Source: Spirochaetae bacterium HGW-Spirochaetae-1
Lineage (GTDB): Bacteria; Spirochaetota; UBA4802; UBA5550
Assembly (NCBI GenBank): GCA_002839375.1
Contig: PGXY01000001.1
Location: 62,001 to 126,000, forward strand
DNA length: 64,000 bases
Direction of reading: 5' to 3'
Below, one piece after another: positions 35,889 to 61,015 of the stretch. How positions within the stretch are numbered: the stretch's first letter is position 1; the number at the start of each line of letters is the position of its first letter. The notes beneath the pieces are model-generated. The model worked only from the letters and a program-made list of their open reading frames with translations. It was not told the DNA's origin and ran no database searches. The position numbers were made by a program, and so were the translations under genes.

Positions 35889-36012
35889 TTTAATATAACA
35901 GGCGTGATGAATTCATGTTCAGTATGCGTGACAAAATATACTGGACAAAAAAAATGACAGATACTTTTATGTTTTTTTCTTTTTTATCACTCACCGTGTG
36001 TTGGAGGTTTAT

Positions 36013-40427: not shown

Positions 40428-41477
40428 TTATTTATTGTCTATTTTCGGTTTTACATCACCCATGTTCAAATCGTTGAGTATTTGATTTCTATCATTCTGG
40501 AATTTTCCCATTATCTTTTCATAGGCCTTGCGATGGGCTTCCCTGACAGCCTGAATTGCCTCATAGTTTTTTTTCTGCTGTTCAAGGACTTTATTCGATT
40601 CCTCTTTCAGTTTTTTGAACTTCTTGTAGATCGAGTTGTTTCTCGCTTCAAAGTCCTTCATGATATTTTCCAGTGAAGCGCTGGAGGCCTCATTGAGAAG
40701 AAGATCGTTCTGGATGGACTCTTCGGCGGTATCGATATTCTCACCGGCCTTTTCAAGGCTTTTCTGGTCTCCGGCTTTTTTAACCATTTTTTTATAGGTG
40801 TCCATGGAATCGCTGGTACTTTTATTTCTTACCCTGAAGGTGCTGACATGGGCGTCGTACTGATCACTTTTTTCTTCAGGATTTTCCACGAGCTCTTTAT
40901 TCTTTTCAGCCTGCCAGTTCTCCACTGTTGAATCATCGGCGGCCTTTTCCGGTTTCTGTGAAACAATGGTGTCGGCCCTTTCATCGGGATTGAGCTCCAT
41001 GGAACCATAGGGATTGTCCAGGGCGAGTTTTCCCTCGGCGAGATCAATACGTGAATCGCCGCCGTCGCTGACGGAAACCGTGAATTCCGTTCCCCGGACA
41101 GCGCAGATGATGGTGGGCGTATAAACCTTGTGACTGCCTTTTTTCAGCTTTTCGAATTTACCCGTGATATTCCCGGAGATAAGCGAGATACTGTCTGAAT
41201 CCTTTATGTTTTGGCTCCCAACCCGGACCGTGCTTTTTTCAAGGACGGTTATTTTGCTGCCATCCTGGTATACGAGCTCCACGGTGGATTTTGCACCGGT
41301 CTTGATACTATCACCGCTATTGATCTCTGTTCCCATGGTGATATCAATTTTTTTGTTGTCTCTTACGGCACTGACATCACCAATATAAAATGATACGGAC
41401 AGTGCCATGAGTTGAAGCGGAACTATGAGCATGGTGCAAACAACAATCGCAATCATCATTCCTTTTTCTTTTATCAT
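40428..41477 (-). CDS. FecR-domain secreted protein
   Basis: 349 residues from ATG 41477, which has GGAGG four bases upstream; the open frame reaches 41573. A signal peptide covers about the first 25 residues. A FecR domain (about 28-150) shows GDVSAVRDNKKIDI, INSGDSIKTGAKSTVELVY and AVRGTEFTVSV. The C-terminal 150 residues are charged and coiled-coil. FecR domains of this kind are envelope proteins rather than sigma regulators. It is 96 bases downstream of the giant TPR/CHAT gene and probably in the same operon. Confidence 0.88.
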   Translation of the reverse strand: MIKEKGMMIAIVVCTMLIVPLQLMALSVSFYIGDVSAVRDNKKIDITMGTEINSGDSIKTGAKSTVELVYQDGSKITVLEKSTVRVGSQNIKDSDSISLISGNITGKFEKLKKGSHKVYTPTIICAVRGTEFTVSVSDGGDSRIDLAEGKLALDNPYGSMELNPDERADTIVSQKPEKAADDSTVENWQAEKNKELVENPEEKSDQYDAHVSTFRVRNKSTSDSMDTYKKMVKKAGDQKSLEKAGENIDTAEESIQNDLLLNEASSASLENIMKDFEARNNSIYKKFKKLKEESNKVLEQQKKNYEAIQAVREAHRKAYEKIMGKFQNDRNQILNDLNMGDVKPKIDNK

Positions 41478-41573
41478 ATTTCCTCCCTGTAATTTTATCA
41501 ATTTTAATAATATTTCATTCAGATTCCTTATAATATAATACAATATCAAAGGAACCGGTATAAAGCAAGGCAT

Positions 41574-44500: not shown

Positions 44501-47500
44501 GGGGAGCCGGTGAGGATTCTCTGAGAATGCGCATGATGCTCTGATTGAAAACTACATAGATATTTTTGCCGCCGCCGGTTTTCTCAAGGAAGGCTGTTAT
44601 ACGGCTTGCAAGGTCTGCGCTATCACCGGTATTGGCGCCGATCGTGGTGAATGTTATGGTACCTTCCTTTATGATCCACGCATGGAGTTTGTTTTTTGCG
44701 AGGAAAAACGAAACAGCCTGAACGCTTTTGTCGGGAAGGCTTTCGGAATTATGCATGGAAAGATATGATGCCAGAAGCGGCCTGTCTTTCCGAAGATTAC
44801 GCGTAAATGTATCCAGTTCATTTTTCCGGCTTTCGAGGTTTTTTGTCTGCAGCGCCCTGACTCCCTCGTCAAGGTTTTCATCCTGTGAAGATATCTCGTT
44901 CATGGATCGGCGGATTTCCGCCAGAATTTTCTGATACCGGTGATAAGCGCGAACATCATTTTTATCGCTGAAATCCGGTGATAACCTGTTTATGACGATG
45001 ATTTTTACTGCGGCATATTGTCTTTCCGACAGATGGAATGCATTTTTCCACTTGCCCGCCTGAATGTATATTTCGGCCAGACTGTCATAGAGGTTTTCGA
45101 TTTTGCTCAGGCTGTCAGAATAAAAAACAGGATATTTCTCCACCAGTGAAAGCGCCTTTTCATAATAATCGGCGGCTACGGTGAGGAAATCATCACCTTC
45201 GACGGACCTGCCCTGTTCCTTCAGGAAACGGGCCGTTTCAAGGTACGTCGAGAACTGGAGCAGAATGGATTGACGGCTGTCGGCCAGTGTTACGGCATCA
45301 CTATACATGGCATAGGCCTTATCGTAAGCGCCCATTCTGGTATAGCAGACAGCGGCATTCAATAAGAGTTTAACCTGAAGTCCGGGGTTCTGGCGGTTTT
45401 CCGCCTCCTCCCGTGATGATTGAAAGGCCGAGAGGGCCTCGTTGTATATTGAGAAAAGCCCTTCGTGATTTTTATAAATTTTATAAGCGTCATCGGTTGC
45501 GCCGGTCAGAAGGTTCATGCGGGTCAGTTCCGCTTTATAGAACAGCAGTATTCCCCGGGCCACATCGAGGCGGTAGTATGTCTGGCGGGATTCCCGGGAA
45601 ATCTCTTCGCGCAGGGCATCCTCCTCGCTCTTCAGGATCTTTCGGTTCTGACTTTTTGCCTCTTTTGACAGTTCATCGTATCGTATGGTATAGAGATTAT
45701 TTTCATATCCCTGACGATAGGACGTGATCCGGTCGATCATGGCGTCGGCATCTTTCAGCGGATTCTGAATGAGGCCGGGTTTGTTCTCTATTGAAAAGGC
45801 AAAGAGGGTTGTCAGGTTGAGAATAGATGTAAGGGCGCCCTCGGGGCTGCCTGTCTTCATGGCGAGTTTCCAGGCATTTTCAAAATGCTCGCGCGATTGC
45901 ATGTAGTTGCCCGATTTGAAACTGTAATATCCCAGGTTATTGTGAGTGGTGATGAGAGATTCGAGGTCGACCTGAGTGTCGCGCTTTTCCAGGTATTTAA
46001 TTTTCTTTTCCAGAAATTGGGCGGCCTTGCCGTAGTTTCCCGTGTCGGCATGAATGGATTCCAGCAGGGAGAGGTTGAGGAGCCTTTTACTGCGGGTGTC
46101 GAGTTTTGTGAAAAATTTACTTTCACCGATTACAGCGTTGTCCAGACCGAGATCATAGAAGGAAAAGGGAATAATATCAAAAAAACGGAACTGAAATTTG
46201 TACGTTTGTTCGTCATCGGGATACCTGTTCAGGAGAAGACTGGCCTGTTCAAGGTATCTGATAGCGCTGTCATAATCGCCAGATTCCCGATGGCACTGAG
46301 CAATTTCCTGGAGATACCGGGCCCTGTCTATTCTTATCCGGTATTTCGAAGCGAAGGAGAGGATCTTCTGATACCAGTCTATGGCTTCCCCGTAGTTTTC
46401 CTCCCAGCGGAAAAAGAGGGCATAATATTTATAAAGGGTAATGAGCTGATTTTTATACCGGGATATGTTGCTGCCCTGGGAGAGTGATTCATATATGAAG
46501 AGGGATTTTCGTATCTCCCGGCGCCCCTTTTCGATTTCATCGTTCTGCCAGTAGCAGTAACCCAGGTGAAAATAGAAGAGAGCCTCTTCGATTTTTGAAT
46601 TGAAGCTTGTCTTATATTTCTGTGTCATGGCGTAATGGTTGAGCGCTTCGGGATAATTGTTGAGAAGAAAGTAATTGTTCGCCATATTGAGATGAATATT
46701 CCCTTCTTTTTCTCCGTGAATCGTCTCATTGTTGATGTCAAGGGCAAGTTCCAGTATGGAGATATTTTTTTCCCACAGAAAAGAAGGGAAATACCTGTTG
46801 AAAAGCCTTTCATTTTCGCCCTTGTCTTCCGAACGGCGAAGATCGACATACTGGTAGATCCAGCTTTTCAAAATATGCGATTCGATGAAGGTGTCATCGA
46901 TAAAAACAGCCCAGTCGATGTGGGCGATGGCCTCGGAAAAATTGGCCAGCAGGGCTTGCAGCCCCACAGCCTCCTGAGGGTTTTTAACCTGTTTTTTATA
47001 CTCCTGTTGAAGGGCTTTCAGGGTATAGATATATCCAAGACCATACAGGTGGGCCTTGTCGAAATCCATCCGTGCCTTGGTGAGCCCATCGCTGTATTTT
47101 TTCTCCAGTTCCCTGATTCCTTCGTCTTTCTTAAGCTGTGTGCTGGCATTAATATAATAGATATGGGCCCGCGGGCCATACTCGTCATAGAGATCATCAA
47201 AGGCCCTTTTGCGGTGTACTACACTCATGAGCGTGGCATATTTGTCATAGAGTTCCACTGCTCCACTGAAATCTCCCGAGCTCTCGGCTCTTTGACCGTA
47301 TTCTTCGTAAAAATTGATGAGCCACTTAAGGCGGTCCCGGTAATCGGGTTCATGCCACAGGAAGAGATAACCCCGTGCTGCGGTAGCGAAATAAATTTCC
47401 GCCTCACGGAAATGTTTTTGTCTCAGGGCCAATTCTCCCAGGAGTATTTGTGAACGATAAAAGAGGAGTTCGATATTGCGCGTTGATTTCAAAGTTTCCT

Positions 47501-49343
47501 TGAGATATTTTTCCGCTTCTTCGTTTCGGTTCCGCTGCATGGCCGTTACTGCCAGCGTATAGTTGAAAAAGGATTTCAGCTGTGGAGTTTGATCATGAGT
47601 TGAAAGCAACTTCCTGAGAATGCCGTCTTTATGTGCCGTGTTTTTTTCTTTTTCATACAGGCTAACCAGGTACTTGGTGAGCTGTACCCTGTTATACGAT
47701 GATCCGCTTGTCAGAATGTAAAGCGTTGACGGTGACAGCGTATCTTGCATTCTGTCATTCTCAAGAAACGCTTTTCTGAAATGAACGGACTCTATGCCCT
47801 TATAGGATGGATATTCCCGGATAATCCTGTCATATGCCGATACGGCCGATGACTTCTCGCCCCACGCCAGTTCCTCGGTTCCCAGTTCTTCCAGTAGATA
47901 GGGCATATATCGTTTTTCATTGTTATTTTTTTCGATTCTCTTTATGGCATCATGCAGGACGGACAGGGTGCTTTTCCCCTGAACCCGGTTTTTTGCCATG
48001 GCATGGAGAGCCGATATGTAAGGATCGCCGTCACTGGACATTTTTTTCAGAAGTCCCAGGTATCGTTCTTTTGCCGCTGTCTCCCGGGATTCCCCGACAA
48101 GAAGGGCAAGGGCCCTGGCCGAATAAATCCTGGCATTCATGTCTTTCTGGTTCCGGAAAAACTGGTGCACCCTTTCAAGGGCCAGCAGGTATTTTCCCTC
48201 ATCCTGGAATTCTTCTCGATAGCGCTGGGCCAGGGTATACTGGGAATAGGAGTCTCCTTTTTTCGGGATGATGCCGTTTTCCGGGATGATGTTCAGGTTG
48301 ATGTTATCACCCTGCTGATTGGAGTAAAGAAGAATGGCATCATATGTTTTAGATTTGAAAACTTTGATGGGCAGCCACCGGGCATTGAAGGACGACTGGG
48401 TATAAAGGGTCAGGGGATATTCCTCGCCGGTCCTGGTGTTATGATACTGCAGAACAGCGTTGTCTTTCAGGTCTATGCTGCCATTGCCATTGGTATCCCG
48501 GTCGATAAGGGTATATATGATTTCATCCGTATCGGCAAGATAGGACGGGAAGAGCACTATCCCCCGTGAAGTGATGAGTTTTTTCTCTTTTCCTGTTTCA
48601 AGGTGCACCGAGTAGATGTCGCCCCCGGGATTGTCGTCGCGGTAGGAGATAAATATCACATCTTTCCCGTCGGCGGAAAAACGGGGATACACGCCGCCCT
48701 TTTCGGTAATTTTGCGGGGACGGTCCCCGTCATCCTCCATAAGCCAGATATTCTCAATGCCATCCCTTTTTGAAGAGAAAACGATGAATTTTCCGTTGGG
48801 AGACCAGCAGGGGCCGGCATCTCGTGATATAAGAATCGTGCCTGCCGACGGGTCCTGTATCTGTGTGAGGTTGCGGGCCGAACTGTCCTGGGACGGCAGG
48901 CGGGAAACGGATTGTTTCGCCTTGTTGATTATATTTTTTGCATCGAGCTTAATGAGGTAAATGTCGCCTTCAGGGTCCTCGCGGTTTGAAACAAAGGCCA
49001 CCCGCTTGCCGTCGGGAGACACCACGGGCTCCGAATCCTTCGAGGCATGATGGGTGAGACGCACCGTGGTTATGCCGTCGAGCTCACGCAGGTAAATATC
49101 AAAGTTGCCGTTTTCGCGGTTGGATGCATAGTACAGGTAATCACCGTCGGGAGAAATATCTCCTTCGGTTTCAATGGATCGTTCAACCGTGACGGGAATC
49201 ACTTCGCCTACGTCATATCGAAACTCCTTGTCCATGATGGCCTTGTAGCTGAAGCTGACCTCATCGCCCTTTTTATTTTCGCAGGTGATAATGAAGGGGA
49301 AAAGGATCGTATAGATAAATATAAGGAAAGAAAGCTTTTTCAT
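41574..49343 (-). CDS. Giant lipoprotein: TolB-type propeller, TPR arrays, two degenerate CHAT domains
   Basis: About 2589 residues. ATG 49343 overlaps the stop of the preceding gene (ATGA); a GTG at 49355 is in frame. The signal peptide ends with lipobox IITC (Cys21). Residues about 50-330 are a WD40/PD40 propeller (EGDISPDGDYLYYASNR, VSPDGKRVAFVSNRE, WSPNGKFIVFSSKRDG). Residues about 370-1490 and 1780-2250 are dense TPR repeats. CHAT-like segments lie at about 1515-1770 and 2290-2589, the last ending HPAYWWGIRLYCNGL. The caspase-type Cys is not evident (FNNSTV where LSACET is usual), so proteolysis is doubtful. Probably an envelope scaffold. Confidence 0.88.
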   Translation of the reverse strand: MKKLSFLIFIYTILFPFIITCENKKGDEVSFSYKAIMDKEFRYDVGEVIPVTVERSIETEGDISPDGDYLYYASNRENGNFDIYLRELDGITTVRLTHHASKDSEPVVSPDGKRVAFVSNREDPEGDIYLIKLDAKNIINKAKQSVSRLPSQDSSARNLTQIQDPSAGTILISRDAGPCWSPNGKFIVFSSKRDGIENIWLMEDDGDRPRKITEKGGVYPRFSADGKDVIFISYRDDNPGGDIYSVHLETGKEKKLITSRGIVLFPSYLADTDEIIYTLIDRDTNGNGSIDLKDNAVLQYHNTRTGEEYPLTLYTQSSFNARWLPIKVFKSKTYDAILLYSNQQGDNINLNIIPENGIIPKKGDSYSQYTLAQRYREEFQDEGKYLLALERVHQFFRNQKDMNARIYSARALALLVGESRETAAKERYLGLLKKMSSDGDPYISALHAMAKNRVQGKSTLSVLHDAIKRIEKNNNEKRYMPYLLEELGTEELAWGEKSSAVSAYDRIIREYPSYKGIESVHFRKAFLENDRMQDTLSPSTLYILTSGSSYNRVQLTKYLVSLYEKEKNTAHKDGILRKLLSTHDQTPQLKSFFNYTLAVTAMQRNRNEEAEKYLKETLKSTRNIELLFYRSQILLGELALRQKHFREAEIYFATAARGYLFLWHEPDYRDRLKWLINFYEEYGQRAESSGDFSGAVELYDKYATLMSVVHRKRAFDDLYDEYGPRAHIYYINASTQLKKDEGIRELEKKYSDGLTKARMDFDKAHLYGLGYIYTLKALQQEYKKQVKNPQEAVGLQALLANFSEAIAHIDWAVFIDDTFIESHILKSWIYQYVDLRRSEDKGENERLFNRYFPSFLWEKNISILELALDINNETIHGEKEGNIHLNMANNYFLLNNYPEALNHYAMTQKYKTSFNSKIEEALFYFHLGYCYWQNDEIEKGRREIRKSLFIYESLSQGSNISRYKNQLITLYKYYALFFRWEENYGEAIDWYQKILSFASKYRIRIDRARYLQEIAQCHRESGDYDSAIRYLEQASLLLNRYPDDEQTYKFQFRFFDIIPFSFYDLGLDNAVIGESKFFTKLDTRSKRLLNLSLLESIHADTGNYGKAAQFLEKKIKYLEKRDTQVDLESLITTHNNLGYYSFKSGNYMQSREHFENAWKLAMKTGSPEGALTSILNLTTLFAFSIENKPGLIQNPLKDADAMIDRITSYRQGYENNLYTIRYDELSKEAKSQNRKILKSEEDALREEISRESRQTYYRLDVARGILLFYKAELTRMNLLTGATDDAYKIYKNHEGLFSIYNEALSAFQSSREEAENRQNPGLQVKLLLNAAVCYTRMGAYDKAYAMYSDAVTLADSRQSILLQFSTYLETARFLKEQGRSVEGDDFLTVAADYYEKALSLVEKYPVFYSDSLSKIENLYDSLAEIYIQAGKWKNAFHLSERQYAAVKIIVINRLSPDFSDKNDVRAYHRYQKILAEIRRSMNEISSQDENLDEGVRALQTKNLESRKNELDTFTRNLRKDRPLLASYLSMHNSESLPDKSVQAVSFFLAKNKLHAWIIKEGTITFTTIGANTGDSADLASRITAFLEKTGGGKNIYVVFNQSIMRILRESSPAPRFPRCTFVPSVNSIAYCRREQDRPLYNVFYTGTGLAGHLSSKSLPVTEYKKEPVDYTPFSLLVDEGENELFTPAILFNTKLKPALIIKNIQDLGYESIISFFEASLYADIPSTIITLRSGQSDLAATIRLVAGGGFPSLADRAETGLVVLPFGHFIGGKGIVLNEKEKLKKAAEAMEKHDHYVSAGSYELARIELNRWHELSRKDTETEIRYACDGAILHLLQGDIVKASDLVKNVLSSFSGDAVPTEPLLILKIYLDLYQGDIASASQVLQNNPRLRTYAETGIFDAIIEAAAGSLDKSLKLYRELESSDNADSPEMDGHKQVLPMGRLQLLFAEYLLMLEGRDTARSILKNRQGDFPMSDRETISYGFLGGSKNSIAGQSERAAGIVNTGDELLTNEKISPRRLLEYSVSLGGFDRLTAPAWTVLLEQSRHRNLESDIMSSLENMDIDSLWGNTSRLDAILLLKTLSRLYTGAGEPTHAIEIIDSLLARLQDRGNINLTKELMLNRGNILARQGLYSDAYKNTLELEQMTGRDERFFQEIQILLLECETRLVQKERAENRISELLLDKTLSGVHAFTLLLLQTRLELNRLATLKTATAEEGRLFEQLFQTAMDRLDSDPGLYGSITSVDLLEEVIDEYINYKMKTGNRTDALLYSDMKKHISARLKYAATTGQLKTIRSLPFVEIQKKIPSDAVLICITKNKKDIFAWILTKTAKNTEIIKDVIPGLTDELARYKENLLSLQNTANTSLALDRIFTSLKKYYKDKKTIIFITDEFMEQVPFEIMGEKNFLVETHGVYFLPSLATALKNISPNVRSVEIIGRSRDKIFTGVEEIALRESGLPLSSGIATGSIAHLFDPVLYNQDERILYCEDTNFGEIAKRSTSLYLPFLDLTGSGPGIFSLTNSQLGINFIIFNNSTVHDNNNAWFINSLYAQLARGGDIRISFEKAIQSLKDKKEFRHPAYWWGIRLYCNGL

Positions 49344-49945
49344 TTTCTGCCCCACCTTCCATTGTCATCCTGTATCCATTCGTTTTTTAGTGCCAGGGCC
49401 CTCTGTTCTTTGGCGAACTGGTTTCCAAAGGAAGCGATTTCTTCTTCCGTTGCCTCGCGCTTCAGGGCCAGGAAGGTGCTTCGTCTGAATATAGTCATGC
49501 GTGCGTCGTTTTCATTTTTTATCACACTGAGAAGGATCTCCCTGCGATCCCTGTTCTTTTCGTATTCATCGACAGGTATATACTGGACAAGTCCCGTGCG
49601 TGTCTCGCCCAGGGACCCTTCCTTTTTATACGCCGATATTTTTTCCAGGTGGAATTCCCGGATCTTCAGGGCCATAAAGAGCTCCTGGTCGGCGCTTGCG
49701 GCCGGTTTGGCCTGTTCCGTTTCGCGGGGAAGGGTCTTGACCGATGAGACAGCCCAGGCGTCCTTTTCTACCTCGTTGTAGTCTCCCGTGATCTGGCGTT
49801 CTATGACGGTCTTTTCTCCCGTGATGTGAATAGCCGGCGGCTTGATGCTGATGCAGCTGGGAAAGTTGGGAGTTGATGAACAACCGCCGAATATAAACAG
49901 GCACAGGGAAAATAGTATCGATATAATCATGGTTCTCATAATCAT
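49340..49945 (-). CDS. DUF1318/YdbL-like lipoprotein
   Basis: 201 residues. A signal peptide ends at lipobox FGGC (Cys22). The C-terminal half fits DUF1318 as in E. coli YdbL: GET (113-115) and a following TG, a central helix with Asn144 and Arg148, then the closing EWIQDDNGRW (W190, W198). The middle segment (KTVIERQITGDYNEVEKDAW) is an addition. It overlaps the AsmA-like gene upstream and the giant gene downstream by four bases each, so the three are co-translated. In E. coli YdbL works with the AsmA-like YdbH in lipid transport; the same pairing is inferred here. Confidence 0.82.
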   Translation of the reverse strand: MIMRTMIISILFSLCLFIFGGCSSTPNFPSCISIKPPAIHITGEKTVIERQITGDYNEVEKDAWAVSSVKTLPRETEQAKPAASADQELFMALKIREFHLEKISAYKKEGSLGETRTGLVQYIPVDEYEKNRDRREILLSVIKNENDARMTIFRRSTFLALKREATEEEIASFGNQFAKEQRALALKNEWIQDDNGRWGRK

Positions 49946-52758
49946 TCTCCTTCTCTCACTCTTCGTAGATACTCCTGGATGGGCATCCTGTCAAAAGTGA
50001 TTTCATCCTTGTCAATTTTAATAATGGGGCGGAAAAAACCCTGTGAAATTTTTACCGTGGTATACACGTTGCCCTTGTCCAGTGAGAAGTTAAAGCCTTT
50101 GACTTTAACGGTATTGTCTACCACGGCCTGGGTCAGGTTCCCCAGCTTCGATTTGCCTTTTTCCTCGCTGAGGCCCTTCATGAGCTTTCCGGCAAACTCT
50201 TTGCCGATTTTGTAAATATTAATATAGCCCCGGGCATCGAGTTGCTTTTTGATGTTCACATTACGGCCCGTGAAATTGGCTGTAAGGGAAAGCTCGGCGT
50301 CCCTGGCCTTTTTGCCGGTTCTCCATTCATCGAGCTTCCCGATATCCACATTGGTCAGGTCAACGATGAGCTTGTACTCCATGTTTGCCGGTTTCATATC
50401 GGCCATGTTGAAGAGGATGCTCCGTGCCTGGAGCGATCCGTCCATGACATAGGCCTTCATATTGGATATCTCGAAAATGTTGTTGCGGAAGGCCATGAAG
50501 GCCTGGAAATCCTTCATGTATTCAAAGGTCACATTTCGGGCAGGGTGTTTTCCCTTGATTGAGCTGATGGTGAAATTTGGCTTTTCCCTGAAGTTATCAT
50601 TGTCTATGAGCTGGTCCTTGCCCACGCTCAGGAGGGACTCACTCTGTTTCCTGGCGGCGAAGGCATACCGGAAGGGAAAGTCCAGGTTGAAACCACGGAC
50701 CTCGGTTTTTTTCTTTGCGCTGGATGCATTGAAGTTATCTATCTTAAGCAACCCTGCGGCATTACCGCTGTCCAGGTCGCCTGTGATCCTCGTGGAGAGA
50801 TCCATCATCCCCGACACGAACCAGTCGTCGTAGATGTTCCTCTTTTCCGGGGAATCGAATTTCATGGTAAGGTGGATGTCCGAATCGGAAAAGGGAGCCT
50901 TCTGCATCTCAAGAAAGCCCCGGGCCTGGAAAGAGGAGTTCCAGGTTTTACTGCCCAGGGCTACATTTTTAATTATGATTTTTTTTCTCACCTGGTCCTG
51001 CACCACCTGCGCTGACAGCCGGAGGTCCATGAGGTCATAGTCGGGTATCTTCGCCAGCATCTGCAGGTCGGCCGCCATTGCTTCCCGGGACTGGCTGAAG
51101 TCCAGGTCAATGTTCATGGTCACGGGATTTTTCAGTGGAATGGATGATATTTTCTTATGATACCGGTCCGGTGTCATGGAGAGCAGGGGGTCGCGGGAAA
51201 AGGTGATATCTTCCACATGCAGAACCGCCTTCAGTGTGTCGCCCAGGAAAGCCCGTCCCCTGGTCCGGAATGACAGGGCGGAGCGGCCCGAGGCGGGTTC
51301 AAAAAACCGGAAGGAAATGCCCTTGATCAGAACCGCACGGAAGCTCTCCGTTACGGACATTTCAGCGGTGAGGTCCAGCCCGTTGTCACCGGACTTGCCT
51401 CCCTGGTATGTGTAGAAGAGATGGGGAACCTTCAGCGACGTATTCAGATCGACATCATCCCCTCTTTTCCTCGCCGTATAGGAGAGATTCATATAAGGGA
51501 TGGAGACGTCTGCTGACGGCGACGGGACCCGGGCGTAGAAGTTTTTCAGCACCACGGACCCGTCCAGAGTCAGGGCTGAAGCAGTGCCGCTGATCTTCAG
51601 GGGCATGAAGGAGATGCTGCCGCCGAAGCGGGTCTTGCGGTCGCCGGTAATGATGGCATAATAGGGATATAACTCATCGATGAGGATGGTGCTCTCACTC
51701 ATCTGCAGGTCAAGCAAGGCGTTTTTCGTCACATTCCGGATCTCGCCGCCCAGGTATATCCACCGCCGGCTTTTGAAAGTGATACTCAGGTTGTTGATGG
51801 CCAGGTAATCATTCAAAGGATTATAATATATGTTATATGAGACAAGAAAATTGAGAGGGGCAAGATGGGACTGTTTGAAGCGCACCGGCGTCCGGTAGGT
51901 GCCCAGTTTAAGCTGACTGTTAAAGCGCGGAGGCTGTCCTTTCCCATTGGCAAAATTGAGTTTCCACATAACAATAAGGGGCGGGCTTACTTCGGCATCG
52001 CGGGAATAGAATGACACGTCCAGTTCTTCCCGGGGGTTCAGGCTCATTTCCATGGTTTCCAGGAGGCGCAGGGCCTCCAGGGAGAGTGGAAGTCTCTTAA
52101 AGGGCGGAACACGCATGTCGGCCGTGAAGGTCAGGCCCTTCATGGACGCGTCGAACCCGCTTCCCCGGACATGGACATCCATGTCCTTAAGGATGAAATG
52201 CAACAAAAAATCCAGTGAGATAGGGAAGGATATCTCTTTTGCCAGGGGACCGCCTGTATCTTTCTTGGCACTGGTTTTTTTTTCAGGCTTTTTATCCCCC
52301 GCCTTCATGAGAACGTCGGTATTCCATCGCCCCTTTTTTTCCACGAGGTAAATCTTCGGCTCATAAATGCCTATTTCGGGGAAACGGACACTGCCCGTGA
52401 AGAGGCGGAAGAAGCTGTATTTGAAGACCAGTTTTTTAATACTGACAAAGGTACTCCGGTCGAATTCCGTGCCGTTTTTTATAACCAGGTCTTCCATGAC
52501 AAAACCGCTATAAGGGCTGAATTCCCGCACCGCAACGGTCAGGGTGCCGTGGGAGCTCTTGTTGAAGGTATCCGTCATAAGGGACTGCACCCTGCCGGGA
52601 GTGAGATATATCTTCAGGAAAAGGAGGGTCAGGGCAATGATAATACCCAGGGCCAGGGGAATTCTTATAAACAGGGTCTTCAGCACCTGTTTCAGTATTT
52701 TATTCCTTCTATCATCGGGAAGGGGCGGCCTGTTGTTTTTTTCTTCCATTTCATCCAT
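49942..52758 (-). CDS. AsmA/YdbH-like intermembrane protein
   Basis: About 938 residues from ATG 52758; the open frame reaches a TTG at 52833 and the ribosome site is weak, so the start is uncertain. A short basic cytoplasmic tail and one membrane helix (about 28-48) precede a very long beta-rich periplasmic chain, typical of AsmA-like lipid-transfer proteins. The region just after the helix (LTPGRVQSLMTDTF, then a FSPYSGFVMEDLVIKNG strand) is the AsmA-type start. The neighbour is a DUF1318 lipoprotein, as with E. coli YdbH and YdbL. It probably bridges the inner and outer membranes. Confidence 0.83.
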   Translation of the reverse strand: MDEMEEKNNRPPLPDDRRNKILKQVLKTLFIRIPLALGIIIALTLLFLKIYLTPGRVQSLMTDTFNKSSHGTLTVAVREFSPYSGFVMEDLVIKNGTEFDRSTFVSIKKLVFKYSFFRLFTGSVRFPEIGIYEPKIYLVEKKGRWNTDVLMKAGDKKPEKKTSAKKDTGGPLAKEISFPISLDFLLHFILKDMDVHVRGSGFDASMKGLTFTADMRVPPFKRLPLSLEALRLLETMEMSLNPREELDVSFYSRDAEVSPPLIVMWKLNFANGKGQPPRFNSQLKLGTYRTPVRFKQSHLAPLNFLVSYNIYYNPLNDYLAINNLSITFKSRRWIYLGGEIRNVTKNALLDLQMSESTILIDELYPYYAIITGDRKTRFGGSISFMPLKISGTASALTLDGSVVLKNFYARVPSPSADVSIPYMNLSYTARKRGDDVDLNTSLKVPHLFYTYQGGKSGDNGLDLTAEMSVTESFRAVLIKGISFRFFEPASGRSALSFRTRGRAFLGDTLKAVLHVEDITFSRDPLLSMTPDRYHKKISSIPLKNPVTMNIDLDFSQSREAMAADLQMLAKIPDYDLMDLRLSAQVVQDQVRKKIIIKNVALGSKTWNSSFQARGFLEMQKAPFSDSDIHLTMKFDSPEKRNIYDDWFVSGMMDLSTRITGDLDSGNAAGLLKIDNFNASSAKKKTEVRGFNLDFPFRYAFAARKQSESLLSVGKDQLIDNDNFREKPNFTISSIKGKHPARNVTFEYMKDFQAFMAFRNNIFEISNMKAYVMDGSLQARSILFNMADMKPANMEYKLIVDLTNVDIGKLDEWRTGKKARDAELSLTANFTGRNVNIKKQLDARGYINIYKIGKEFAGKLMKGLSEEKGKSKLGNLTQAVVDNTVKVKGFNFSLDKGNVYTTVKISQGFFRPIIKIDKDEITFDRMPIQEYLRRVREGE

Positions 52759-53061
52759 TTCTTTTATACCGGGTGGTCCATTTTTACAATTTGCAATAAG
52801 GAGAAAAGTATTCTTCCGATTCCAGGTTGGCAAGTAAAAATTGATCTAATAGTGTGAAGAGATCGCTATTCATAGTATAACATCAGGAACGGTTCCATGC
52901 AATTGATCCGCATAAAAATATTAAGGAATACTATCAATATTAACCTCAGGGTACATGGCCATGGGATTACTTCAATGGACAGGTATAAAATTACGGAAAA
53001 GGCTTGCAGGATAGTGATAATTTTTGTATATTTTCACGATGCTTTTGTCAGCAAAAACTTC

Positions 53062-53143: not shown

Positions 53144-54139
53144 ATGAAATTTAAAATAAAAGATTTATCCAGCAGACTTAGAATGAAAATTATGGAAAGT
53201 TTTTATGTTTTCCGCAAGAAGGCCATCCGGTACTGGGACGGCTATGTGGAGAAAGGCCATGAAAAAATGACCATTATGTTCATTCCCCACAACGAGAAGA
53301 ATATCTTCAATTTTCAGATATCCAAGTTCACCATATCATTTTTTGTATTCCTTTTTGTTGTCATCATTGTCACGTCATCCTATGCCCTGATAAAAAATGC
53401 CGCGGTGAAACGTGAGGAGCAGCGCCTCATGATGACCTATGAGGATATCCGGTCCCATCTCATTCGTTTTGAGAAGCTGACAAACGACGTGGAAACTCTC
53501 ATGGAGGATGTGAAGCCTGAAGTGGAGGAGCTCTATGAGCTGGCCGCCGGTACTGACGATGTGGATAAACTCTGGACCGTAGAAGACTTCGATAAAGAGG
53601 ATATGGAAGCGCTGAAGAAAATGAAAAATATCCTGCCCGATGAGATATTCACTATAAAGGAACTGCAGAAGGACCTGGTCTGCACCACCAATACAATCAA
53701 GACGGTGAAAAATTTTATCGATGTCCGCAGCAAGGTTATTCAGGATACACCATCGATAATATCAAACTCCGGTCACATAACGTCTCTTTTCGGATGGCGC
53801 CGTTCCCCCTTCGGCCACGGCAGGGATTTTCATACGGGCATCGATATCGCCGCTGCCAGCGGTACCGTTATCCAGGCCACGGCTCCGGGCGTCATAATGT
53901 CGGCGGGATGGGGTGGTGGATACGGACACATGATTCGCATTCAGCATAAATACGGTTTTGAGACCATATACGGGCACTGCCGGTCGATCATCGTGGCCCA
54001 GGGTCAATCCGTTAAAAAGGGACAGATCATCGGCTATGTGGGACAGACGGGAAACGCCACGGGAAATCACTGTCACTATGAGATTCGTCTGGGCGGCATA
54101 CCCATCAATCCCTATCCTTATATGAGCAGAATCTGGTAA
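53144..54139 (+). CDS. Membrane-anchored M23 (LytM-type) peptidase
   Basis: 331 residues. One membrane helix (about 64-86) is followed by a periplasmic coiled coil (about 90-200) and a C-terminal LytM domain. The zinc-binding sites are visible: HTGIDIA (His and Asp, about 230-236) and HCHYE (about 308-312), with the usual GYGHMIRIQHKYGFETIYGH block. All metal residues appear intact, so it can be an active peptidoglycan endopeptidase rather than an activator. It is 114 bases upstream of the SprA-like gene and shares its promoter. Confidence 0.92.
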   Translation: MKFKIKDLSSRLRMKIMESFYVFRKKAIRYWDGYVEKGHEKMTIMFIPHNEKNIFNFQISKFTISFFVFLFVVIIVTSSYALIKNAAVKREEQRLMMTYEDIRSHLIRFEKLTNDVETLMEDVKPEVEELYELAAGTDDVDKLWTVEDFDKEDMEALKKMKNILPDEIFTIKELQKDLVCTTNTIKTVKNFIDVRSKVIQDTPSIISNSGHITSLFGWRRSPFGHGRDFHTGIDIAAASGTVIQATAPGVIMSAGWGGGYGHMIRIQHKYGFETIYGHCRSIIVAQGQSVKKGQIIGYVGQTGNATGNHCHYEIRLGGIPINPYPYMSRIW

Positions 54140-54253: not shown

Positions 54254-57200
54254 ATGTGGAAAAGGCCCTACACTGTCCTCCTTACACTCTCCATCGGCGC
54301 TGTAGTCTTTGCGCTGACTTACGCGTATACGGAAAACAAAGGATTTAAAACACAGCTCGAGGATTACATTGAACGTCATGCCATTGCTGAAACGGCGGAA
54401 TCTGCTGAAATTAAAAATGACGAGGATAACACTTATTCATCGACAGTGATTATCCTCCCGCCGATTTCCATGGGCACGGATTACCGGGAAGGCGACTGGG
54501 ACCGGTATATCGTTGCTCCGGGATACCGGTCCATGGAAGATCGGCAGGGCGTCACTACGCTATATCGCGGCGCTGACACGGAGTTTATATCCTACGGTTC
54601 CATGAAGCTCAATCTTGCTTATGGGGGTTCCGTTTTTGCCAATGATAAATACCGCCTCTCCGATCAGGACAGGGCGACCTCATCCCTGGTGCAGTCGGGA
54701 TTCATGCCGGAACAGGAAATGCAGTTGCACATGGAAGGGAAAATCGGCGACCGCATGACCGTGTATATAGATCATGACAGTCAGAAGCAGGATAATCATT
54801 ACCTCATGCAGTACCGCGCCGTCAAGGATGACGAAGTTATACGGGAAATCAATGCCGGTGAAATCGATATAAAATTCAACGCTTCAAAGTATGCTGTCTA
54901 TGATAACAATACCAGCAAAGGCCTCGGTGTTGATATAACTTTAAGAAAGAAAAACCTCCAGGTGAAGGCCTTCGGGAGTATTTCCCGTGGTGAGACCACC
55001 GTGGAAACTTTCCGGGGCAACTCTTCTTCGGGCAGCACGCACCTGGCGGAATATCAGTATGTTAAAAGGATGTATTATCAGGTTGAGCCCTATATACGCT
55101 ATGATGGGGCAGGGAACGTACCGTCTTTCCCGGGAGCCTATACGTCTTTCAACACGTTCACGTCGGACCAAGCCTCCTTCACTCCCCATGCGGTAAACCT
55201 GGAACCCTCGGGTTTTGAAGTATATCTCGACGATCAGAACCCGAATAACAACTCTGACGCGATACAGCTTTCCATCGACCAGGGATATTATTCAAGACTC
55301 AGGGACGGCGTCGATTATACGGTTAACTACACCACGGGTCTGATCAAATTTCTCAGGGATATTCCCGAAAGCGGAAGGATATTTGTGTTGTACAATCTGA
55401 AAGGGGGATCGTCAGCCTCCACTGACCCGGCCGCGCTGTACAACACGGTATACCCGGGCCGCTTTTTTGTGTTCATCAAATACGGCGCTATTATCAATGA
55501 GGATGCGGACCGTAATGGCGCCATTGACGGCGACCGCAACGGTGACGGGGTCATGAATCTTGATGTCTATGAAGTCAGGTCCTTTTATTACCTGGGAGAC
55601 CGGCAGCTCCTCTCCAGCGATTTTTCCCTGCAGTTTTATCGTGAAAACAGCATCATGACTAAAACGGATATAAGTGCCCTGGGCGCTTATATCATTGATT
55701 ACACAACGGGGACCATTTCTTTTTCCCACAGGGAACCCTTCAGATCATTGATCGACAGCGCATCCCTCGATGATATATATACGGAGAAACAGCCGGCGGG
55801 AGTTGCCACTGTATCACGATACGCTATGCTGGCCGATTATTACCGCGAGGCCAGGACTTTCCAGCTCAAAAATTTTAATATCATCCCCGGCAGCGTGCAG
55901 GTGAAGGTTAATGATCGCGTGCTTGCCGAGTCCCTCTATTCCCTGGACTATACCACGGGATACCTCATGTTCACCGATCAGAACAATCCACAGATCAGCA
56001 GCGAAACAGCTATAGAAGTACGGTATGAATATCTTCCCCTGGGCGGGCAGTCCCAGGATTTTATCGGCGGCGTCCGGGCCGATTATGAGTTTAACCGTAA
56101 TCTTTCCTTTGGAGGAAGCATCCTGTTAAACAGGAGTTCGGGGTCTGAGATTATCCCCCAGCTCGGGGCCGAGTCATCCCAGACCTTTCTTTTTGAAGGG
56201 GATACCACCCTGAAGCTGGACGGCAGAAGGATCGCCGAGGCCGTAAATATCTTCACCGAAAAGAAAAGGGATTATGTACCCGTGGAGATAACGGGCTACG
56301 CTGAAATCGCCAGAAGCTATCGCGATGTGAATACCTTCGGCAAGGGCCTCCTGGATAACATGGAATCATCGAATGAGATTACTACGATCTCTCTCTCTGA
56401 GAAGGACTGGGTCCTTTCCTCCATGCCCGGCGGCACCTTGCAGGCCGACCGGGGACTTTTATATTATTACTATTATCAGGACCCCTTCAATCCCGGCAGC
56501 CTGAAGGGCACATCGTATAACGCCACTGCCGTGGCCTATGCTGTAAAACCGGGACCCTATAATGTGGCCACGGGGCATGTGGCAGATTCCATAGAAGATA
56601 CGTCTGCCCAGAGGTCGCTTGTCTTTGATTATGAATTCACCGGTGGGACAACCTGCGTGTCCGTGGCGAGCAGGCAGTTTTCCGGAGGTGCCGTGGATTT
56701 TTCCGGTCTCCAGTATGTGGAGATATCGTACCGTTTTGAAGGAACTAACGATGTTAATCTTTTTCTTGACCTGGGGAAAATAAATGAGGACAGCGACGGC
56801 GACGGCATTCTCGACACCGAGGATACCAACCTGAACGGGTATCTCGACGTGGATCCCGATTCGAATCTGACCGAGGATGACGGATATCCCTTTAACGGAA
56901 ATTACAGCACGGTAGTGGGATCGGGCCCGGGACTCAGTTCCTATATCAGGGGCGACGGGGTTCTCAATACGGAAGACCTGAACCGAAACGGCTCTCTCGA
57001 TACCGGTGAAAACGTGATAACCCTGCCGGGAGCAGATACCAGCCCGGCGTCGCTTACGATAAGCGCCATTGATACATCATGGAAAAGGGCGCGTATCTAC
57101 ATGAATACATCTCTCACAACGGCCCAGATTGAGCTGCTGAAAGAGATATGGACCGTTCGTCTTTATATGAAGGGAAATGCTGGAGAGAGTGGTAAACTGT

Positions 57201-59914
57201 TCATTGACGATATCCGCTTCGTCTCCTCCCGATGGAAAGATCCACGGATAAACGGCGTTACTGCCAGTCCGGCGAATCTCCAGATCACCACGGTGAACAG
57301 CATCAATGACAGTGATTACCGGGCAAATGCCTTTATTTTTGAACAAAGTGGCGTCTATAAATCTCTCTATGGGGAAAAAACCGCCGATGAGCTGGCACGG
57401 GAGACCGAATCGGCTATGCAGGTCTGGTATAATGGAACCTCCGGCGATGAATTCTCCATGGAAAGGCGTCTCTCCAGTCCCGTGGATCTACGATTTTACC
57501 GGACGCTTAACCTGTGGCAATACTGTTTTCAGAGCGGTGACGAAATGAGTGTCATTATAGGCTCCTCGGACACGGATTACCGGGAGTACCGCTATACCAT
57601 GGATTTTCCCAATGTCTGGCGTGAGACGAAATTGAAACTTCAGGAAGACTCTTCCGGGGACGTGGAGATATTCAGCCAGACCGGTGATCCCGACATGAAG
57701 AGAATAAATTTTATTAAAATCATTGTACGTTCCGGAAACGCCGCGGGGAAGATATGGATCAACGATATATACGCCTCGCAGCCGGAAACGCAGAAAAGCA
57801 ACGCTCACTGGGTCGAGAGCGATATTAAAATAAAACGCCCTCTTTTTAAGACCGAAAAGGGAACACCGGTTTTTTCCGATATTGATGTGAAATTCGTGCA
57901 GAAGGGCCATGGGTCCCAGTTTAGCTCCGTCGGCAAAGCCGGCACGGATATGAGTGAGCAGTACTATGAAATCTATTCTTCTATGAATGTTCTTCCCCGG
58001 TGGAAAACCATGTTCGACTTTATACGGGAGGACTCGGTCACGGACAGTCTTAATGAAGACGTGAGTGAAACAAAGAGGGGAGAAACGGTCAGAAATTCAT
58101 TTTATGTAATGTCGGACTATGTTTCGGATACAAGCGGCATTCCCAGTATTCAGCTTTCCTGTAAAAGCGATTTTTATGATAATATGCGCGATGAATCAGC
58201 CCTGAGCAATGATATAAGCAGGAGAACAGGAAAAATATCCCATACCCCAACTATCCTGATAAATGAAAAGATAGAAAATTTCCTTTCAGGCATTCTCACT
58301 ACCCGGCTTCTCATGAATATGCTGTTCAAAGAAGAAAAACTTGATCGCATGTCGGGGACCCTCGATTCCGCCAGTCTTTCATTGATCGTCCCTCTTGAGG
58401 AATCGGAAAAGAGCCAGAGAGTCGATACCAGTGTTGAAATGAGTTATTCCAATAAGGTATTTTTTATACGACCTGTGTTCACGATGGCCTCGGAAGAAAT
58501 CGTCGAGTATACAGGGAAGTCTTCATATAACGACTCCTCGCTGCTCGGTGATCTGCGGGGAGATTTTCATTTTCCATTTATATTAAGTGATGACGCAAGG
58601 CTCGTGGAGAGGAACAAGGGTTTGAACTGTTCGTTGGGTATAACCGATTACGGGTACATCTCACCCGTTTACTCCATGGAGATGTATTACCGGGAGAACT
58701 CCTTCCGCGATTATAATGACTCGGAACTCACGACAAGCGGATCTTTCGTAAGGGCGAAGGATGCGCGGAGTTCCGCAATCAGCAGGATAGATGTTCCCGT
58801 AAACCTGAATAAAATCAGTACTGTAAAAAAGGCCGGATTTATAAAGGGACTTAACGCGTCTTTTGCCAGGTCGGTCTATTTTTCTGAAACAGCCATCCCC
58901 TACGAGGGAGAGGGATATGATGCCTTTGACGAACAATATGGATTGAAAAGATCATCTTCGGGGATACTAAACGAAGGGCTCAACGTAATACAATTTTTCC
59001 CGGGATATTTCTTTCTCGGACGGAAAACCGCTTCGAAGGGAAGGGACTATGTGTACAAAACATTGAACTCTTCAATAGATTATGCGACGGGAACTACTGT
59101 GGCCGATTATAACAATGGTTTGAAGATTATTGAAAATTTTTCCCTTAATCTTCTTTTTGATTTTTCACTTTTTACGGCCGACACGGGCGCCGGACTCAAT
59201 CAGATATGTGAACGTCAGAATATTTATGGTATTCCACAACAGATAATAACCCGCACTTTCAATACACGCTTCAGTTTTGACCTGATGAAAATATTTGATT
59301 TCTGGTTTTTCCGTCCCAACAGCCAGGACCAGCCCTATCATGCAGCGTTTTTTGAATTGGGATATTCTCTCAATAACAGTATGATAATAACGGGAAATTT
59401 ATACGAAAATACCCATACACCGTCAATCGGAATTACTTTCAAGTGGGATCGTTCCCACCTGGGCATCATAACCGGTGTAGACATTCGAAGCAAAAAGTAT
59501 CATGAATTCATTTCAGCGGAAAGTACTGCCGATGCGATTTATTATGACGCTATTACCATCAACCCGGGTTTCAGTGAGGTTGATACGGGGTATACTTTTT
59601 CGGTGGTCTATGAGACCGATGTAAAGTGGATATATGACGCCTTCTCGAAGGTGTATGCCCTTGTGGCCTTTCCTATTTTTACGATAGAGTATTCCATGAA
59701 GCTTAATCGCTATGATTATTCGCTGACAGCCATACCTGAACCCTATGACATGCACCTGCTCCAGGGAAAACTGACAATGGATCTGCACCGGAATGTGCAG
59801 GGAGGTATGACAGGGAAGATGGCCCTGGAAAATTACCGGAGCCGCGAAACAGGGGAAGTCATAAGAAGTATCATTTCATATGAAGTAGCGGCCCAGATGA
59901 CACTGCTGTTTTAA
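54254..59914 (+). CDS. SprA-like giant outer-membrane protein
   Basis: 1886 residues with an N-terminal signal/anchor (about 5-25). Segments match the SprA (T9SS translocon) family: GKIGDRMTVYIDHDSQ (162-177) followed by EVIREINAGEI, the repeated strand pair NIIPGSVQVKVN (542-553) with YSLDYTTGYL, and KPGPYN (about 765-770). Acidic Asp/Asn-rich calcium-binding style loops occur near 416-436 and 844-873 (DSDGDGILDTEDTN). The last third is strand-rich and the chain ends in Phe, as outer-membrane barrels do. Shorter than typical SprA (over 2,300 residues). No other T9SS gene is in the window. Confidence 0.85.
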   Translation: MWKRPYTVLLTLSIGAVVFALTYAYTENKGFKTQLEDYIERHAIAETAESAEIKNDEDNTYSSTVIILPPISMGTDYREGDWDRYIVAPGYRSMEDRQGVTTLYRGADTEFISYGSMKLNLAYGGSVFANDKYRLSDQDRATSSLVQSGFMPEQEMQLHMEGKIGDRMTVYIDHDSQKQDNHYLMQYRAVKDDEVIREINAGEIDIKFNASKYAVYDNNTSKGLGVDITLRKKNLQVKAFGSISRGETTVETFRGNSSSGSTHLAEYQYVKRMYYQVEPYIRYDGAGNVPSFPGAYTSFNTFTSDQASFTPHAVNLEPSGFEVYLDDQNPNNNSDAIQLSIDQGYYSRLRDGVDYTVNYTTGLIKFLRDIPESGRIFVLYNLKGGSSASTDPAALYNTVYPGRFFVFIKYGAIINEDADRNGAIDGDRNGDGVMNLDVYEVRSFYYLGDRQLLSSDFSLQFYRENSIMTKTDISALGAYIIDYTTGTISFSHREPFRSLIDSASLDDIYTEKQPAGVATVSRYAMLADYYREARTFQLKNFNIIPGSVQVKVNDRVLAESLYSLDYTTGYLMFTDQNNPQISSETAIEVRYEYLPLGGQSQDFIGGVRADYEFNRNLSFGGSILLNRSSGSEIIPQLGAESSQTFLFEGDTTLKLDGRRIAEAVNIFTEKKRDYVPVEITGYAEIARSYRDVNTFGKGLLDNMESSNEITTISLSEKDWVLSSMPGGTLQADRGLLYYYYYQDPFNPGSLKGTSYNATAVAYAVKPGPYNVATGHVADSIEDTSAQRSLVFDYEFTGGTTCVSVASRQFSGGAVDFSGLQYVEISYRFEGTNDVNLFLDLGKINEDSDGDGILDTEDTNLNGYLDVDPDSNLTEDDGYPFNGNYSTVVGSGPGLSSYIRGDGVLNTEDLNRNGSLDTGENVITLPGADTSPASLTISAIDTSWKRARIYMNTSLTTAQIELLKEIWTVRLYMKGNAGESGKLFIDDIRFVSSRWKDPRINGVTASPANLQITTVNSINDSDYRANAFIFEQSGVYKSLYGEKTADELARETESAMQVWYNGTSGDEFSMERRLSSPVDLRFYRTLNLWQYCFQSGDEMSVIIGSSDTDYREYRYTMDFPNVWRETKLKLQEDSSGDVEIFSQTGDPDMKRINFIKIIVRSGNAAGKIWINDIYASQPETQKSNAHWVESDIKIKRPLFKTEKGTPVFSDIDVKFVQKGHGSQFSSVGKAGTDMSEQYYEIYSSMNVLPRWKTMFDFIREDSVTDSLNEDVSETKRGETVRNSFYVMSDYVSDTSGIPSIQLSCKSDFYDNMRDESALSNDISRRTGKISHTPTILINEKIENFLSGILTTRLLMNMLFKEEKLDRMSGTLDSASLSLIVPLEESEKSQRVDTSVEMSYSNKVFFIRPVFTMASEEIVEYTGKSSYNDSSLLGDLRGDFHFPFILSDDARLVERNKGLNCSLGITDYGYISPVYSMEMYYRENSFRDYNDSELTTSGSFVRAKDARSSAISRIDVPVNLNKISTVKKAGFIKGLNASFARSVYFSETAIPYEGEGYDAFDEQYGLKRSSSGILNEGLNVIQFFPGYFFLGRKTASKGRDYVYKTLNSSIDYATGTTVADYNNGLKIIENFSLNLLFDFSLFTADTGAGLNQICERQNIYGIPQQIITRTFNTRFSFDLMKIFDFWFFRPNSQDQPYHAAFFELGYSLNNSMIITGNLYENTHTPSIGITFKWDRSHLGIITGVDIRSKKYHEFISAESTADAIYYDAITINPGFSEVDTGYTFSVVYETDVKWIYDAFSKVYALVAFPIFTIEYSMKLNRYDYSLTAIPEPYDMHLLQGKLTMDLHRNVQGGMTGKMALENYRSRETGEVIRSIISYEVAAQMTLLF

Positions 59915-59929
59915 AGGAACCTGTCGGAA

Positions 59930-61015
59930 TTATTTGAAAATACCTTTGATTGTCCCGCGGACTTTTGTGAAAAATCCTTTAAGCTCGGTAATAAGAATCT
60001 CGTCGCGCTGCTGCTTCAATGATTCCAGGGTGGACAGGTTCAGAACTTCCCAGAGCATGTCGCGGTCCGGGCATACACCAAGAAAATCAAGCGGTACCTG
60101 GAAGGCACCCTTGTATTTCCGCGCCCCCCCGTCCGGCGTTATTCCCTTTATAATGTTGTTTAAATTGAGATTATCATTATTTGTCCTGAAAGACGCGTCC
60201 AGGGTCAGTGACTTTCCGTTCCTGCCTGTAACAGAGGCATAAACTACAACCACTGAAACATTTTCCCGGTTGAGAAGAAAGTCCGCGATTATGGCAATAC
60301 TGTCCCTGTCTGTTTCGTCAATAAAGCCTATTCCGTAGATAAGCCAGTTTTTGTAGATGATTTGCCTGTCCGAAGCCATGGAAAGATATTTGGCGGTGTT
60401 CTGCGACATGGGAAGTCCGGCGATGTCATTGATGATATCATTGTCGGCATACCGGGAAAGGTAGTTGATGGCCTCGTAGTCATAGCGTGAGGCGTGACGG
60501 TATTTGTCCGTATCGGTCTGAATGCCGAACAGAAGGGCCGTTGCCATGGTTGTTTTCTGTGCATCGCTCATCTGAGGATTTAATTCATGGAGCAGGAGCG
60601 AGATTATGGTGCAGGTGGAGCCCATATCTTTACGGATCAGTCTGAAATCGGCGGGAATATGTTCGTCTGACTTTTCGTGATGGTCAATGTGGGCGGCACA
60701 GGGAATAATCCCTGTTATGTGGTCAATCATGGCGGACTGGTGGTCAACCACGATATAGGCATCGTATTTGTCTATTTTCTCGATCTCACGGGTGATTTTA
60801 ACCGGGATATCAAGCTTGCGGATGAAGAGCTTGTTCTGGGAGAGGGAAAGCTTTTTTATCGCTACTATGTTCGTCTTGACATTGAGAGTGTCACAGAGAT
60901 ATTTAATTGCCAGGGAAGAGGCTATTGCGTCGGGATCAGGTGATCCCTTGATATAAATCAGAATATGGGAGTATTTTCCCAGGGCATGTACCAGTTGCTG
61001 TGCCAGTTCTTTCAA
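59930..61015 (-). CDS. DHH-family phosphoesterase (NrnA/RecJ-like)
   Basis: 361 residues with a TTG start at 61015, preceded by GCAGGA. The metal-binding motifs are in order: SPDPDAIAS (about 25-33), IVVDHQSA (about 90), HIDHHEKSDEH (about 110) and a further DTDKYRHA (about 170). A DHHA1-type substrate domain follows, with GGARKYKGAF near residue 300. Such proteins cleave short oligonucleotides or cyclic dinucleotides; with cyclic-di-GMP enzymes in the window, a pGpG-type role is possible but unproven. It follows the SpoIIE gene by 19 bases. Confidence 0.9.
   Translation of the reverse strand: MKELAQQLVHALGKYSHILIYIKGSPDPDAIASSLAIKYLCDTLNVKTNIVAIKKLSLSQNKLFIRKLDIPVKITREIEKIDKYDAYIVVDHQSAMIDHITGIIPCAAHIDHHEKSDEHIPADFRLIRKDMGSTCTIISLLLHELNPQMSDAQKTTMATALLFGIQTDTDKYRHASRYDYEAINYLSRYADNDIINDIAGLPMSQNTAKYLSMASDRQIIYKNWLIYGIGFIDETDRDSIAIIADFLLNRENVSVVVVYASVTGRNGKSLTLDASFRTNNDNLNLNNIIKGITPDGGARKYKGAFQVPLDFLGVCPDRDMLWEVLNLSTLESLKQQRDEILITELKGFFTKVRGTIKGIFK

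Follow-up and report, generated by a model that had tools for sequence, protein, structure and literature searches.

A distant SprA homologue in Spirochaetota and the export route it may serve

A spirochaete gene that resembles the one for the giant translocon SprA raises the question of how it came into this phylum and whether it belongs to a type 9 secretion system (T9SS). One published description confines this system to Bacteroidetes (PMC4793230) and another to the Fibrobacteres-Bacteroidetes-Chlorobi (FCB) superphylum (PMC11205867); the GldLM motor is reported to drive its translocon (PMC10994853). A search of the open-access literature (subscription papers and preprints lay outside its scope) found no account of spirochaete proteins of the SprA type. 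The gene analysed here lies in a stretch of 64,000 nucleotides from Spirochaetae bacterium HGW-Spirochaetae-1 (the window) and had been assigned to SprA by a sequence-only reading of this stretch. Its parts and its two neighbours are the following:

53144-54139, forward strand: M23 peptidase (Pfam PF01551, E 3.8e-32), syntenic upstream neighbour with a putative functional link
54254-59914, forward strand: SprA-like homologue of the outer-membrane translocon (1886 residues; profiles and predicted fold)
54254-54328, forward strand: N-terminal hydrophobic segment, probable Sec signal peptide (residues 1-25, read directly from the sequence)
54566-55753, forward strand: N-terminal SprA block (residues 105-500, hhalign) with GKIGDRMTVYIDHDSQ at 162-177
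55751-56068, forward strand: block with the IPGSVQVKVN / DYTTGYL repeat (residues 500-605, hhalign)
56069-57253, forward strand: block with LLDNMES, GPYN, KINEDSDGDG and GYPFN (residues 606-1000; hhalign, near-invariant positions)
57251-58033, forward strand: SprA middle block (residues 1000-1260, hhalign)
58016-59911, forward strand: C-terminal beta-barrel part with aromatic end (residues 1255-1886, predicted fold)
59930-61015, reverse strand: DHH phosphoesterase-like protein, convergent syntenic neighbour, probably unrelated (neighbour annotation and synteny)

Homology to SprA and predicted fold

The open reading frame starts with ATG and is uninterrupted. Sov/SprA (TIGR04189) is the sole family that NCBIfam confidently names for its product (E 6.2e-28, 96.6 bits, four stretches), and Pfam yields nothing significant. 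Since 97 bits lies below the curated equivalog cut-off of 200 bits, which the relative from locus L031 does not reach either (167.7 bits), the protein is, as judged from profiles and models, a distant homologue of SprA and not a SprA equivalog. For the Pfam family SprA_N (PF14349) there was no match in the window's genome, with a control Bacteroidota SprA at E 1e-198. Searches of the PDB by sequence, with the single sequence as well as with a profile, did not reach SprA, but structure comparison did.

In hhalign a 30-row spirochaete alignment (relatives drawn from the same phylum together with stretches of more distant genomes) matched 28 Bacteroidota SprA sequences with probability 100 and E 2.6e-62 over 1067 columns. 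Residues ~105-1253 are collinear with SprA (query columns 112-1253 on SprA 166-1594) at an identity of ~17%, and this significant match covers most of the protein. Four blocks are significant each on its own, namely residues 100-500 (on SprA 166-620, E 7.5e-23), 500-605 (on SprA 652-740, E 1.2e-10), 606-1000 (E 2.5e-23) and 1000-1260 (on SprA 1317-1566, E 1.5e-16), and the homology is therefore not that of one short repeat. With both DY-TG repeats deleted the match to SprA still has E 4e-47. A reversed alignment gave no match, and among the column-shuffled controls three of four gave nothing and one a spurious match of nine columns, which is why short hhalign matches were not trusted. A chance match or a match of a single short repeat, the latter being what the sequence-only reading had named as its refutation, is ruled out by the block-wise test and the repeat deletion.

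The blocks named in the sequence-only reading were recovered in family order: GKIGDRMTVYIDHDSQ at residues 162-177, the IPGSVQVKVN/DYTTGY repeat at ~543-570 and GPYN at 767-770 are all collinear with SprA. Over ~1150 residues both proteins show the same order of common blocks (GxIGxRhxVxIDxD, NGxxL..YxVDYxxG, IDDhE, GPYN and GxIxED). GKIGDRMTVYIDHD is aligned onto SprA AQIGKRLKVSANFD, IIPGSVQVKVNDRVL..YSLDYTTGYL onto AQPGSVVVTSGGRKL..YVVDYQIGNV, GPYN onto GSYN (GPYN in the SprA consensus) and KINEDSDGDG (842-851) onto GNISEDILKDG, which includes the SprA motif GNISED. LLDNMES has the family form IDDMES and its SprA counterpart is YIDDFEG; GYPFN is found at 877-881. Giant size and a signal-peptide-like N-terminus are further common properties. 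The spirochaete protein differs from SprA in its length (1886 vs ~2400 residues), in leaving ~165 N-terminal SprA positions unaligned and in the sequence of its C-terminal barrel, which is unrecognisable: for the last third (residues 1255-1886) hhalign gave no SprA match. Behind the signal-peptide-like segment, GFKTQLEDYIERH (residues ~27-45, 54332-54388) recurs across the order of the window's genome in an otherwise variable N-terminus and may be a docking segment.

The fold was predicted with AlphaFold in two overlapping half-models (residues 100-1250 and 737-1886) from an alignment of the window protein and related loci that contained no Bacteroidota SprA. Half-models by their nature cannot close a barrel such as that of SprA with its 36 strands, external cap and lateral opening, and their mean pLDDT of 62.7 and 67.8, respectively, corresponds to moderate confidence. 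SprA is the best-matching fold for both predicted halves. In Foldseek searches of the PDB its chains 8gl8, 8gl6, 6h3i and 6h3j occupy the first four places for both halves, with E-values between 1.7e-37 and 1.8e-26 for the N half, where the first unrelated protein follows at 9e-7, and between 9e-20 and 3e-15 for the C half, where the next protein is at 1e-5. VIA-align 2 places the N half in order on SprA 129-1568 (Z 15.1, 841 residues) and the C half in order on SprA 902-2401 (Z about 13, 784-829 residues). TM-scores to SprA are low (0.3-0.4) owing to a large rigid-body error in the models. For the C half, generic TonB-dependent and Mtr barrels reach Z values equal to or above that of SprA because of the poor rigid-body geometry of the half-barrel, and SprA is favoured over them by aligned length and order, not by Z. 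Since the predicted C half matches SprA structures, the C-terminal barrel is probably SprA-like, too. An aromatic barrel end had been claimed as well and is indeed a family property: the C-terminal residue is aromatic in 28 of 30 relatives, and this part matches SprA in predicted fold but not in sequence.

Distribution, descent and gene neighbourhood

Of 296 Spirochaetota genomes searched with a profile of 23 rows, 96 have a SprA-like protein, usually as one copy of about 1850-2050 residues; by genus the figure is 65 out of 138. A scan of genome contigs revealed relatives also in Elusimicrobia, Aerophobetes, Hydrogenedentota and Poribacteria MAGs and in one 'Clostridia' MAG. All of these relatives stay under the TIGR04189 cut-off, which is surpassed in 40 of 51 Bacteroidota genomes. 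One Flavobacteriales match of the scan (L065) was discarded as a short EDxDxDG-type match away from SprA, and the real SprA of that genome was found separately.

The 23 spirochaete rows together make up a single clade (99% SH-aLRT) on a long stem. In the quick tree a branch separates Bacteroidota SprA from the other phyla; the deep branching order of this tree with its long branches is unsure. In most genomes of the window's order the SprA-like gene is located between the M23 peptidase and the DHH protein, a synteny that is nearly fixed. The history of the gene in Spirochaetota is old and mostly vertical. A recent horizontal acquisition of Bacteroidota SprA could be imagined, as SprA is best known from Bacteroidota and anoxic habitats are common to both groups. 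Such a transfer is hardly credible in view of the single spirochaete clade apart from Bacteroidota SprA, the spread through the phylum, the near-fixed synteny within the order and an identity to SprA of only ~17%, and we reject it on the grounds of tree, spread and synteny. Of the two origins offered in the sequence-only reading, a horizontally acquired or an ancient pore, the first is not supported and the second fits.

The synteny with an M23 peptidase and an AsmA-family protein upstream in the window (49340-52833, reverse strand, 963 residues, then a DUF1318 protein) could hint at an outer-membrane barrel with a non-protein role, i.e. in lipid or polysaccharide transport or in envelope structure. 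We consider this role very unlikely: by far the closest relative in fold and sequence is the SprA translocon, of which protein export is to our knowledge the only known role, and the AsmA neighbour is known from the window's locus alone.

Various other neighbourhoods were noted. Locus L055 (MWDJ01000049.1, titled 'Bacteroidetes bacterium ADurb.Bin145') carries a spirochaete-type SprA-like gene (48% identity) and also the syntenic M23 peptidase (63%), and its Bacteroidetes label looks wrong. One distant group of spirochaetes has genes for an Omp85-superfamily protein of 927 residues (L047:6182-8965) and an M23 peptidase (L047:8962-10326) next to the SprA-like gene, and in L048 an open reading frame of 932 residues is found at the position of the Omp85-superfamily protein. 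Genes of STAS-domain anti-sigma-factor antagonists (~111 residues) lie beside the SprA-like gene in L031 and L036, with open reading frames of similar size in L032-L035 and L037, and in some genomes of one spirochaete group they are present on both sides. A ComF gene directly 3' of the SprA-like gene occurs in Elusimicrobia/Endomicrobia (L058:4943-5575, L062:14834-15550). What adjoins the gene in other phyla (ComF, histidine kinase, STAS proteins) gives no hint of a common pathway. The window itself encodes, on the reverse strand, a protein of 2593 residues (41574-49355) that combines PD40 beta-propeller repeats and a long array of TPRs with a C-terminus weakly matching a CHAT protease and that adjoins a FecR-domain protein (40428-41573), and, on the forward strand, a BadF/BcrA-type activase of 1442 residues that unites two BcrAD stretches and DUF2229 in one chain (35998-40326).

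Carriers, sorting tails, motor subunit and sortase

The sequence-only reading, whose view was limited to 64 kb, had seen no PorV. This is correct for the window but not for the genome, in which profile searches, the basis of all genome-wide statements made here, detected a PorV/PorQ-family protein of 396 residues (G000:C14:37782-38972; NF033709, 130 bits vs a cut-off of 90) and, counting weaker ones, four matches to this carrier family (also Pfam UPF0164) in all. The 396-residue protein is under the cut-offs of the PorV and PorQ equivalog models; it differs from known carriers by an extra C-terminal TPR-like tail and by a gene position far from the SprA-like gene. With the profile of its family the best PDB match is PorV of the SprA complex (E 1.3e-4), and FadL follows just below. 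Among the 296 Spirochaetota genomes a PorV-family match is present in 93 of 96 with a SprA-like protein vs 98 of 200 others, kinship being ignored in this count; matches over the curated cut-off occur in 48 of 96 vs 2 of 200, related genomes not being independent here either, so that p-values calculated from these counts overstate the association. Genomes G012, G025 and G036 have 60-80 first-look PorV-family candidates each, a large expansion of carriers.

T9SS cargo bears a C-terminal domain (CTD; TIGR04183), and a search for such domains had already been proposed in the sequence-only reading. Its outcome is mixed, with few tails in the window's genome and many in the spirochaete G012. The former has one tail over the cut-off, one match that is not C-terminal and one weak C-terminal match. 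The tail over the cut-off belongs to a protein of 130 residues that consists of signal peptide plus CTD only (G000:C8:134252-134644); its gene is directly followed by a second PorV-like barrel gene, and the pair is repeated in genome G007. A secreted-looking protein of 831 residues in the window's genome has a weaker CTD-like C-terminal tail. Por_Secre_tail matches number 53 in G012, 61 in the Poribacteria genome G302 and 14-41 in three Bacteroidota, the spirochaetes in this search being SprA-positive genomes only. Wherever loci were read, in G012 as elsewhere, the proteins look secreted and have the tail at their C-terminus, and in 5 of 10 G012 loci read the tail-bearing gene adjoins a PorV/PorQ-like gene. 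The spirochaete tails resemble type A CTDs of the T9SS: they are C-terminal, have a length of ~75-85 residues and a W...G.Y core, and carry a basic residue close to their end; their rarity in the window's genome and the relatedness in fold to FlgD Ig-like domains have to be set against this. A profile of 18 tails matches the CTDs of PorZ (2.2e-7), PorU, gingipain and the SprA-bound endonuclease I, but also FlgD, a fold relative of CTD tails. Due to this kinship single weak tail matches are ambiguous, and Thermus and Deinobacterium controls give a weak tail signal.

The scarcity of CTD-like tails in the window's genome, the occurrence of PorV-family proteins without SprA and the position of FadL just under PorV in the PDB search would suit a SprA-fold pore that exports via non-CTD signals, with the PorV-family proteins as ordinary FadL-like transporters. 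This explanation is unlikely, as PorV-family members over the cut-off are almost confined to genomes with a SprA-like protein and genes of CTD proteins adjoin PorV-family genes both in G012 and in the window's genome.

GldM had no match at E <= 0.001 in the window's genome or in the 11 other SprA-like genomes searched, with three Bacteroidota as positive controls at E 1e-132 to 1e-184; the only value between 0.001 and 0.01 was a match of about 100 residues in G011 (E 0.008). The earlier statement that Gld genes are missing thus holds genome-wide as regards GldM. The C25 peptidase, i.e. the catalytic domain of PorU, had no match in 13 spirochaetes including the window's genome and was present in all Bacteroidota controls (1e-105 or better) and in Poribacteria. 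Two T9SS-defining features, GldM and C25/PorU, are therefore lacking among the profile matches of the window's genome.

If the GldL/GldM motor and PorU had diverged past recognition, a complete T9SS would likewise agree with the presence of SprA-like protein, PorV family and CTD tails. As the SprA-like protein is itself under the cut-off, other parts could be harder to see, and the genome-wide searches for motor and sortase covered GldM and C25 only. Nevertheless we find a complete but diverged system rather doubtful, since GldM had no match at E <= 0.001 in any of 12 SprA-like genomes and C25 none in 13 spirochaetes, and both were readily detected in the controls.

A putative export route

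In Flavobacterium johnsoniae PorV docks at the lateral opening of SprA, cargo attaches by its CTD to loops of PorV within the pore, and GldLM energy pulls PorV and cargo out of SprA (PMC10994853). The candidate parts of the spirochaete, i.e. pore, carrier and tail, fit the first two steps of this mechanism. The best explanation, which we hold to be fairly probable, is a SprA-PorV-type translocon that would export CTD-tailed proteins and would draw its energy from a source that is not a recognisable GldM. The SprA-like protein would form a very large outer-membrane beta-barrel pore and, by analogy with SprA, have a lateral opening at which a PorV-family barrel would dock. Within the pore a Sec-exported protein would attach to this carrier by a C-terminal T9SS-like CTD, and the two would exit sideways to the cell surface. 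As there is no recognisable GldM for the third step, cargo may be released with another energy source or passively. Starting from the homology demonstrated above, it is the export function, the joint action of the partners and the energy source that we infer. Counting against this explanation are the few tails and the distance between the PorV-like and the SprA-like gene in the window's genome as well as the PorV-family proteins of SprA-negative spirochaetes. The different export route that had been suggested on first sight is only half supported: carriers and tails look T9SS-like, and what is missing is the GldM motor subunit and the C25 sortase domain.

With a chance that we put slightly below even, a SprA-PorV-CTD secretion system without GldLM motor and PorU sortase occurs widely across Spirochaetota and also in several further phyla. 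It would represent either an older core, to which the Bacteroidota T9SS added rotary motor and sortase later, or a lineage that lost both. Part of a machine thought to be special to Bacteroidota and their close relatives thus looks older and more widespread, and, if this is true, the translocon core is older than the other parts of the T9SS or has outlasted them. Such a system would be a natural one for asking what energises the release of cargo from the pore, and spirochaetes would gain a candidate route for surface proteins.

A minor observation concerns Bacteroidota genomes with SprA, many of which show a weak second TIGR04189 match at model positions ~604-655. It lies in a protein of ~1150-1270 residues, a size that suits PorU, and may reflect a repeat common to SprA and PorU.
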